Assembly: GCA_002729525.1 (NCBI GenBank)
Contig: PBYI01000033.1
Coordinates: 62,001-126,000, forward strand
Source: Nocardioides sp.
GTDB taxonomy: Bacteria; Actinomycetota; Actinomycetes; Propionibacteriales; Nocardioidaceae
DNA: 64,000 bases
Direction of reading: 5' to 3'
Each line of letters starts with the position of its first letter. Position 1 is the stretch's first letter. Positions 57,434-58,865 of the stretch are shown here, piece by piece. Below the pieces are notes generated by a model. It did no database searches and was not told where the DNA came from. It saw only the letters and a list, made by a program, of their open reading frames with translations. The position numbers and the translations under genes are program-made.

Positions 57434-57913
57434 ATGAAGGTCGTGGTGGCGGGCGTGTCCGGGTCGGGGAAGACGACGGTCGGACGTGCGCTGGCCGACC
57501 GGCTGGACGTGCCGTTCGTCGACGGCGACGACCTGCACCCCGAGGCGAACGTCGCGTCGATGGCCGAGGGCGTCGCGCTCGACGACGCCGCCCGGCAGCC
57601 GTGGCTGCGCTCCGTCGGCGCGTGGCTCGCCGACCACACCGACGGCGTCGTCGCCTGCTCGGCGCTCAAGCGCTCCTACCGCGACGTGCTGCGCGAGCAC
57701 GCGCCCGATGCCCGGGTGCTGCTGCTCGACGGCGACCGAGCGGTCATCGCCGAGCGCCAGGCCGATCGTCCGGGCCACTTCATGCCGACGTCGCTCCAGG
57801 ACAGCCAGTGGGCGGCGTTCGAGCCGCTCGGCGCCGACGAGGCGGGCGCGACGGTCGACGTGGCCCTCGCACCGGACGAGGTCGTCGACGCGTTCGTCCG
57901 GCAGTGCGGCTGA
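57434..57913 (+). CDS. Gluconokinase (GntK family)
   Basis: 159 residues from ATG 57434 (SD GGTGGAG). P-loop 'GVSGSGKTTVGRALADRL', 'VPFVDGDDLHPEANVASMAEGVALDDAARQPWL', catalytic-loop 'ACSALKRSYRDVLRE' and 'ADRPGHFMPTSLQDSQWAAFEPL' are all specific to GntK. It phosphorylates gluconate to 6-phosphogluconate. No gluconate permease or GntR repressor is adjacent, so the gene is not part of a complete utilisation cluster here. Confidence 0.9.
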   Translation: MKVVVAGVSGSGKTTVGRALADRLDVPFVDGDDLHPEANVASMAEGVALDDAARQPWLRSVGAWLADHTDGVVACSALKRSYRDVLREHAPDARVLLLDGDRAVIAERQADRPGHFMPTSLQDSQWAAFEPLGADEAGATVDVALAPDEVVDAFVRQCG

Positions 57914-57922
57914 CCGGCCCGC

Positions 57923-58012
57923 TGTAACACGCCGTCCGGAGGTCTACCGCGCTGATCGATCAGTGCAGCAGATGGTCCATGGGTGCGGTAGATGGCCGAA
58001 CGACGTGTTACA
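57923..58012. repeat. 90-bp imperfect inverted-repeat element with nested hairpins
   Basis: Outer arms TGTAACACGCCGTCCGG and CCGAACGACGTGTTACA match at 15 of 17 positions; both mismatches would pair as G-U in RNA. An inner stem TCTACCGC / GCGGTAGA (8 bp) encloses CTGATCGATCAG and ATGGTCCAT, two further self-complementary blocks. As RNA this gives a long stem opening to a two-hairpin top. It fills the gap between the gluconokinase stop and the nei stop on the other strand. Terminator, MITE-like element, or structured RNA are all possible. Confidence 0.7.
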
Positions 58013-58031: not shown

Positions 58032-58865
58032 TCAGACCTCCGGCTGGCACACCGGGCACCAGAACACCCGGCGCGCGGCGAGGTCGTCGGCCAGCACCCG
58101 GGCGCCGCAGCGACGGCACGGGAACCCCTGGCGCCGGTAGACGTAGTGCGCGTCGGCGCGGGTGACCCGCCCCGCGCGGGAGCGGTCGTCCGGCTCGGTG
58201 GTGACGATCCGGCCCGCGCGCACGCCGGCGCGCATCAGCACGACGAGGTCGTCCCACATCGCCTTCCAGGTCACCGGGTCGACGTCGCGGCTCGGCGTGC
58301 GCGGGTGCACGCCGTGGCGGAACAGCACCTCCGCCCGGTAGACGTTGCCGACCCCGGCGACCGACCTCTGGTCCATCAGCAGCGTGCCGATCGGCATCCG
58401 GCTGCCCGCCACCCGTGCCGCGACCTGCTCGACGTCGGCGTCGGCGCGCAGCGGGTCCGGGCCGAGCCGCGCCAGCAGCGCGTCACGCTCGGGTGAGGTC
58501 ATCAGCTCGCACGCGGTGGGCCCGCGCAGCTCCACCCAGACCGGGTCGGCGTACGACGAGCGCCCGGGCTCGGCGTCGGCGACCAGCCGCAGCCGCAGCG
58601 CGCCGCGCGGCTCCGGCGGCTCACCGGTGCCGTCGCGGAACTTCCCGTACAGGCCCAGGTGCACGTGCAGCCACACGTCGCCCTCGTCGGGGTAGTGGTG
58701 CAGCAGGTGCTTGCCCCACGCCTCGGTGCCCCCGAGCCGCTGCCCGTCGACCAGCGCGGCGCCCTCGGCGAACCGGCCCTGCGGGCTGTCGACGGCCAGC
58801 CGGCGACCGACCAGCATCCGGCGGTGCCGGTTCGCGAGCCGGTGCACGGTGTGTCCCTCGGGCAT
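58032..58865 (-). CDS. Fpg/Nei-family DNA glycosylase (Nei2-type)
   Basis: 277 residues. Starts 'MPEGHTVHRLANRH' with catalytic Pro2-Glu3 and the 'EGHTVHR' form of actinobacterial Nei2. The H2TH region 'SVAGVGNVYRAEVLFRHGVHPRTP' and the C4 zinc finger 'CRRCGARVLADDLAARRVFWCPVC' are complete. It removes oxidised pyrimidines and nicks the abasic site. ATG 58865 is exact because Pro2 must follow Met; the tracked 59435 end is a shadow extension. It is divergent from the SprT-like gene. Confidence 0.93.
   Translation of the reverse strand: MPEGHTVHRLANRHRRMLVGRRLAVDSPQGRFAEGAALVDGQRLGGTEAWGKHLLHHYPDEGDVWLHVHLGLYGKFRDGTGEPPEPRGALRLRLVADAEPGRSSYADPVWVELRGPTACELMTSPERDALLARLGPDPLRADADVEQVAARVAGSRMPIGTLLMDQRSVAGVGNVYRAEVLFRHGVHPRTPSRDVDPVTWKAMWDDLVVLMRAGVRAGRIVTTEPDDRSRAGRVTRADAHYVYRRQGFPCRRCGARVLADDLAARRVFWCPVCQPEV

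Follow-up and report, generated by a model that had tools for sequence, protein, structure and literature searches.

What is the 90-bp nested inverted repeat that lies between convergent gluconokinase and Nei2/Fpg-family glycosylase genes in a Nocardioides genome: a structured RNA, a terminator, or a small mobile element, and if the last, what moves it? Many bacterial genomes contain dispersed palindromic repeats. In the literature that we considered, the REP/REPIN repeats with their RAYT protein are the only class with a known dedicated enzyme. The element was noticed in a 64,000-nucleotide stretch of one contig, here called the window. From its relatives across the genus, we consider, with a probability of about 0.6, that it belongs, as a solo and non-autonomous copy, to a two-part system similar to REPIN-RAYT, in which an unrelated enzyme would take the place of the transposase.

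Results

The window element is built from arms and modules

The nested inverted repeat is present exactly where the preliminary description placed it (Table 1), and its predicted RNA fold is exceptionally stable on either strand (−50 kcal/mol, z −6.45 for the plus strand; −44.5 kcal/mol, z −5.98 for the minus strand), a stability matched by none of 200 shuffles. From left to right it consists of a 15-bp arm, a 20-bp unit in forward orientation, two 20-bp units reversed and a second 15-bp arm. The inner stem and self-complementary blocks that had been noticed together with the long arms are explained by this modular build, as they arise because two of the three 20-bp modules are inverted. Within the window, the sequence TGTAACA is confined to the two ends of the element.

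Two features of the surroundings proved to be incidental. The hexamer TGACCG had been pointed out on both flanks; on the left, the TGA terminates the gluconokinase reading frame (57911–57913, 9 bp from the element) and other copies have no such flank, so this is not a target-site duplication. Proximity to a DNA-repair gene of the Nei2/Fpg type is likewise a coincidence, the partner gene described below being located on another contig, outside the window. There was no orthologous gap with which to compare the window site, the best regional matches beginning within the glycosylase gene.

Table 1. Positions of the element, its parts, its neighbours and the partner gene (window coordinates unless stated otherwise)
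Feature	Position	Strand	Sequence	Basis or remark
Solo 90-bp palindromic element (15+20+20+20+15)	57923..58012	.		Direct reading, genome copies
Left outer arm	57923..57937	+	TGTAACACGCCGTCC	First 9 bases the same in 10/10 90-bp copies
Module 1, 20 bp	57938..57957	+	GGAGGTCTACCGCGCTGATC	Copy consensus AGACGTCTACCGCACTGATC
Module 2, 20 bp, inverted	57958..57977	-	GACCATCTGCTGCACTGATC (on - strand)	Consensus GACCGTCTACTGCACTGATC
Module 3, 20 bp, inverted	57978..57997	-	GGCCATCTACCGCACCCATG (on - strand)	Consensus AGCCATCTACCGCACGCATG; added unit that turns 70 bp into 90
Right outer arm	57998..58012	-	TGTAACACGTCGTTC (on - strand)	
Gluconokinase gene (GntK/IdnK type)	57434..57913	+		TIGR01313, E 6e-47; context only
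Nei2/Fpg-family glycosylase gene	58032..58865	-		Ends 19 bp right of element; context only
Cognate nuclease gene, 345 aa	Own genome, C70:208091-209125 (= locus L015:4092-5126)			Outside window; between two 90-bp copies

A modular repeat family of the Nocardioides group

The genome from which the window derives contains at least 18 scattered copies, ten of 90 bp (including the window element) and eight of 70 bp. BLAST recovered the nine other 90-bp copies, with 78–95% identity to the window element, whilst pattern searches yielded the eight 70-bp cousins, which have the same ends, some of them spelled TGTCACACG or TGTAGCACG. The ten 90-bp copies align without gaps as 15-bp arms enclosing three modules. 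The preliminary idea of a small non-autonomous element thus holds in so far as the copies are many, dispersed and located at unrelated loci; a transposon with such terminal repeats is not supported (see below).

Elements with perfect TGTAACACG...CGTGTTACA ends were found in 26 of 215 genomes of the genus, and the matches listed measured 70, 71, 89 or 90 bp with 65 to 95 bp permitted. When some 85,000 species genomes were scanned, the matches listed came from Nocardioides-group records only. Plasmids, phages and viral contigs gave no homologue of the element or of the partner protein; of the two viral sequences that fitted the pattern, both taken to be unrelated, one (L257) is AT-rich DNA full of TGTAACA. 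The lengths of the palindromes that flank the partner gene (n=92) are also quantised, at 70–72 bp (59 elements), 90–91 bp (3), 109–110 bp (23), 150 bp (6) and 138 bp (1), such that 91 of the 92 fit 70 bp plus multiples of 20 bp, and the long ones are self-similar with peaks at a 20-bp lag. The repeat family is therefore modular, with 15-bp outer arms beginning TGTAAC around a variable number of 20-bp units. About 12 bp past the ends of some elements (in the flanks at L117, L234, L118, L149 and L165) there are partial extra units resembling GAGTTACAC, which suggests tandem growth of TGTAAC-like boxes. Separately, an 80-bp palindrome, TGTAACTACGTGTT...AACACGTAGTTACA, of a length outside the 70+20n series, is kept in two close genomes (G143:C3:53427, or 53427 in the concatenated loci L376–L383, and G181:C1 at about 306034).

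The repeats do not behave as RNAs or as transposon ends

Selection on RNA had been suggested for the element. Among the ten 90-bp copies, stem covariation was not above that of shuffles, with weak covariation in the inner palindrome formed by modules 1 and 2, and no Rfam family matches the window element. A larger sample, 97 distinct 71-bp relatives from the N. luteus group, has conserved mismatches at fixed positions, with covariation at a single pair of positions and anticorrelation at others. The inner halves in this group fall into two types, A and B, which are paired with one another beyond chance (39/49 sites, p 2e-5), and this speaks against a hairpin, which would not favour the A+B combination. 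Nor is a strand-specific RNA function indicated, the elements lying in either orientation relative to the gene without significant bias (30 vs 19). A structured RNA was rejected on these observations. An intrinsic terminator is not supported either, since the elements are at gene 3′ ends but have GC-rich flanks lacking a T-tract, and the placement of elements inside longer terminator stems was rejected, as the complementarity between their flanks equals that of permuted partners (−28.9 vs −28.2, sd 0.55).

The 12-mer TGTAACACGNYG occurs 83 times in genomes G000, G001 and G112, and all or nearly all of these occurrences are the ends of 70–90 bp elements (G112 C15:295311 being left aside). Apparent singleton ends in G001 and G147 belong to complete 71-bp elements with one end altered. 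Since nothing longer stands behind the ends in these genomes (G000, G001, G112), a transposon with terminal inverted repeats, or a miniature derivative of a DDE transposon, is not supported. No target-site duplication was present in the flanks of any copy, though the set offers no recent insertion paired with a clean empty site. An integron attC site does not fit either, judged by eye, as the RYYYAAC/GTTRRRY boxes do not correspond to the element ends. A RAYT-type Y1 transposase (PF01797) was detected in 0 of 186 well-assembled genomes of the genus, the own genome included, with one hit in 209, and RAYT was rejected as the partner enzyme.

A gene for a predicted nuclease is bracketed by the palindromes

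In the own genome, two of the 90-bp copies are 1.26 kb apart and enclose a single gene, which encodes a 345-residue protein. In N. lijunqiniae, Nocardioides sp. 503 and the N. luteus group, too, elements adjoin or enclose a member of this gene family. We retrieved homologues by querying with the protein sequence alone and then examined their flanks. TGTAAC...GTTACA palindromes were found on both sides in 28 of the 30 best homologues and on one side in the remaining 2. For 20 weaker homologues (38–51% identity), hand-picked from the ranked list, they were on both sides in 16 and on one side in 2; one of the other two has a pair of 70-bp palindromes with non-TGTAAC ends (17/20 if counted) and the other has different palindromic repeats. 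These last two are L360 (genome G109), where the 70-bp palindromes have TCTTACTGACCGTTGC.../ACTTACTGACCG... ends, and L370 (genome G002), where the repeats are of CTACCCGGGTGG type. The same detector gave no detections in 135 kb of control loci, which include other AbiEi_4 paralogues of the own genome; these paralogues have no palindrome bracketing. In the loci read, a single gene lies between the palindromes, with no partner toxin inside the unit. One palindrome is situated roughly 80–200 bp upstream of the gene and the second downstream.

Gene and repeat also go together across genomes: a strong homologue is present in 23/25 genomes with TGTAACACG elements vs 37/184 others (Fisher p 2e-12). 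The arms vary by lineage (TGTAACACG, TGTAACGCGGTG, TGTAACGCCCGG, TGTAACTCACCG and others), and the arm type clusters on the protein tree, with 5 changes vs 8.6 after shuffling (0/200). Dispersed copies match the bracketing copies in four genomes (G000, G001, G112 and G206), and within 400 kb of the last of these, a genome with GCGGTG arms, another four solo palindromes of 70 bp belong to its cognate type. The association is thus genus-wide and diverse in sequence, and it involves one nuclease family. There are at least 12 different neighbourhoods of the nuclease gene among 50 genomes; they are mostly conserved within clades, and movement is therefore rare.

The partner protein is a predicted DNA-binding nuclease fusion

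No solved structure matches the protein by sequence. Its AlphaFold model (pLDDT 91) places an AbiEi antitoxin fold in residues 1–198 (6y8q, Z 11.3) and, in residues 203–316, the catalytic domain of the homing endonuclease I-Bth0305I (3r3p, Z 10.7, 2.2 Å over 96/97 residues), with further matches of that predicted domain to Vsr (Z 9.3) and TnsA (Z 6.1). The nuclease-family protein contains a PF13338 domain, and the PADLOC AbiEi models match the AbiEi part only. E206, D237, E246 and D248 never vary across 31 homologues, and K252 hardly does. The partner is accordingly predicted to join a DNA-binding domain of AbiEi type to a PD-(D/E)XK nuclease that resembles Vsr and homing endonucleases. Pairs of 23-bp inverted repeats are the binding sites of AbiEi proteins, which use them to autoregulate from their own promoters (PMC7319586), and the 20-bp modules are similar in scale to those repeats.

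Solo copies lie next to gene 3′ ends and are retained by descent

With genes called by a simple rule based on open frames and GC3, a gene 3′ end was found within 150 bp at 80 of 86 distinct solo sites, most commonly at a distance of 10–20 bp, leaving only 6 sites that lack an adjacent 3′ end. Gaps between convergent genes hold 52 of 85 solo sites, where the same loci would lead one to expect about 25% (p 1e-12).

Several species of the N. luteus group share the element at about 40 orthologous sites, despite divergence of the flanking gap. The inner halves keep their type and orientation at 25/32 comparable sites; at the remainder, as rare events, the inner part is inverted relative to the arms or there is conversion to AA or BB. 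Template switching at quasi-palindromes could be the source of both changes. In the MAG-46 lineage the elements are 70 bp long at 15/15 sites read, 13 of them sharing a TATA centre, at positions occupied by 71-bp elements in sister species, and a variant has therefore spread genome-wide. Loss is recorded by a 16-bp scar, TGTAACACGTGTTACA, at L241 in N. luteus BAFB, where sister species carry the full 70–71 bp element; here the inner part is lost and the arm tips were left behind. One precise filled/empty pair was found (G181/G143), and it looks like loss from G143 by deletion between 7-bp repeats. Other gaps at orthologous sites are too diverged to define an empty site, and no new insertion event was seen. 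Taken together, the elements are vertically retained modular repeats that undergo occasional half-exchange, inversion, loss and replacement, with a genome-wide shift of the centre variant in one lineage.

Replacement is seen where a different palindrome occupies some element sites in sister species. A common palindromic repeat of GGTCGAGCCGCGAGCGCCAGCGAGCGTGTCGAGACC type fills 3′ gaps in L145, L179 and L184 (orthologous to L105:6494 and L121:2567), and in N. albus (L199) the gap orthologous to L130:2165 contains the palindrome GATACGACGGGACGTTCTTGT...ACGAGAACGTCCCGTCGTATC in place of a TGTAAC element. This last palindrome may belong to another nuclease-palindrome pair.

Discussion

We propose that the first part of the system is a chromosomal gene for the putative AbiEi-nuclease fusion and that the second would be the set of palindromes, made of 15-bp TGTAAC arms and 20-bp modules, one pair of palindromes flanking the gene and the rest lying in gaps at gene 3′ ends. 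Protomers of the protein would bind inverted half-sites, each an arm plus a module, probably through the AbiEi part, and the nuclease part might then cut at or near the arms, or at a target. Repair that copies the palindrome could account for spread, homogenisation and upkeep in the absence of target-site duplication. The data show the pairing of gene and repeat; binding, cutting and movement are inferred. A bolder proposal, to which we give somewhat less than even odds, is that this is a new class of mobile DNA, in which the fusion recognises the palindrome and drives insertion at gene 3′ ends and homogenisation in trans, protein and palindrome co-diverging so that each species has its own recognition code.

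Several points count against the two-part system: neither a new insertion nor a target-site duplication was seen, gene contexts mostly stay the same within clades, and two bracketing pairs (L360, L370) have other ends. The upstream bracketing palindrome could, moreover, simply be an autoregulatory operator. Extended to all copies, this becomes a scheme in which the palindromes are operators of an AbiEi-like regulator that shuts down its own gene together with a regulon, and the nuclease domain has its role elsewhere. Promoter-borne 23-bp inverted repeats by which AbiEi proteins autoregulate (PMC7319586) and the position of one palindrome roughly 80–200 bp upstream of the gene both fit this scheme. 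Against it stand the location of 80/86 solo sites within 150 bp of a gene 3′ end and of 52/85 between convergent genes (p 1e-12), the mere 6 sites that have no such end beside them, and the position of the other bracketing copy on the downstream side. We regard this explanation as unlikely.

It is similarly improbable that the locus is a defence module whose nuclease attacks invading DNA, the chromosomal palindromes serving as sequestering, licensing or immunity sites. The fold of the nuclease is like those of Vsr and restriction enzymes, and the protein matches PADLOC AbiEi models, yet those matches are limited to the AbiEi part, the single-gene bracketed unit includes no toxin partner, and no link was seen between the palindromes and phage.

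Chance spread of terminators or RNA hairpins at gene ends, with the gene later inserted beside them, would account for the 3′ location, for the very stable folds and for the other palindromes at some of the same sites in sister species. We think it very improbable in view of the fixed 70+20n lengths, the invariant TGTAAC ends, mismatches that are conserved with covariation lacking, flanks that have neither complementarity nor a T-tract, and a gene that most genomes carry between cognate palindromes. DDE transposons typically end in TGT...ACA and have inverted repeats, and miniature elements of such a transposon with TGTAAC ends, its transposase having been missed, are the least credible source, given that 70–90 bp elements and no larger one explain the ends in G000, G001 and G112, that no target-site duplication was seen and that the bracketed gene is not a transposase.

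The value of the finding lies in a nuclease, recognisable by its structure and unrelated to RAYT, whose repeats flank it in most of the genomes studied. The pairing makes the origin, upkeep and purpose of dispersed palindromes directly testable, it provides a large natural set of protein and DNA-site pairs in which to study the divergence of recognition, and the system may yield new sequence-specific nucleases. The arrangement of a gene between two palindromes, recurring across Nocardioides, appears not to have been described before: the mainly open-access journal papers surveyed, which concerned AbiEi, DUF559 and Vsr as well as homing endonucleases and palindromic repeats, contained no report of such a pairing.

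Each part of the system has a known counterpart. The N-terminal region has the fold (Z 11.3, PF13338) of the AbiEi antitoxins of type IV AbiE systems (6y8q; Rv2827c), which bind 23-bp inverted repeats (PMC7319586), but here a C-terminal nuclease domain is added and dispersed repeats are present. That nuclease domain resembles the EDxHD/Vsr-type I-Bth0305I (3r3p) and Vsr (Z 10.7, rmsd 2.2, 96/97 residues), and the predicted model combines the catalytic fold with conserved acidic and lysine residues; unlike those enzymes, it is fused to an AbiEi domain, chromosomal, free-standing and bracketed by palindromes, outside introns and phages. The repeats share with MITEs and CGTC-tagged palindromic repeats the character of small, dispersed, non-coding inverted-repeat DNA, yet they differ from MITEs in that neither a transposon sharing their terminal repeats nor a target duplication was seen, and from CGTC repeats, which are without a partner gene (PMC3733652), in that a partner gene has been identified. 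The closest likeness is to REPIN/REP-RAYT systems, where short intergenic palindromic repeats made of two inverted halves also bracket a chromosomal gene and persist vertically (PMC3733652, PMC3116915, PMC2817692); here, too, a dedicated gene is bracketed by repeat copies (28/30 and 16/20) and the solo copies are intergenic. As RAYT was tested for and is absent, we do not file the system under REPIN-RAYT. The enzyme there is a Y1 HUH transposase acting with 20–40 bp GTAG hairpins, whereas the Nocardioides palindromes are of 70+20n bp with TGTAAC ends and are paired with a predicted AbiEi-Vsr/homing-endonuclease fusion.
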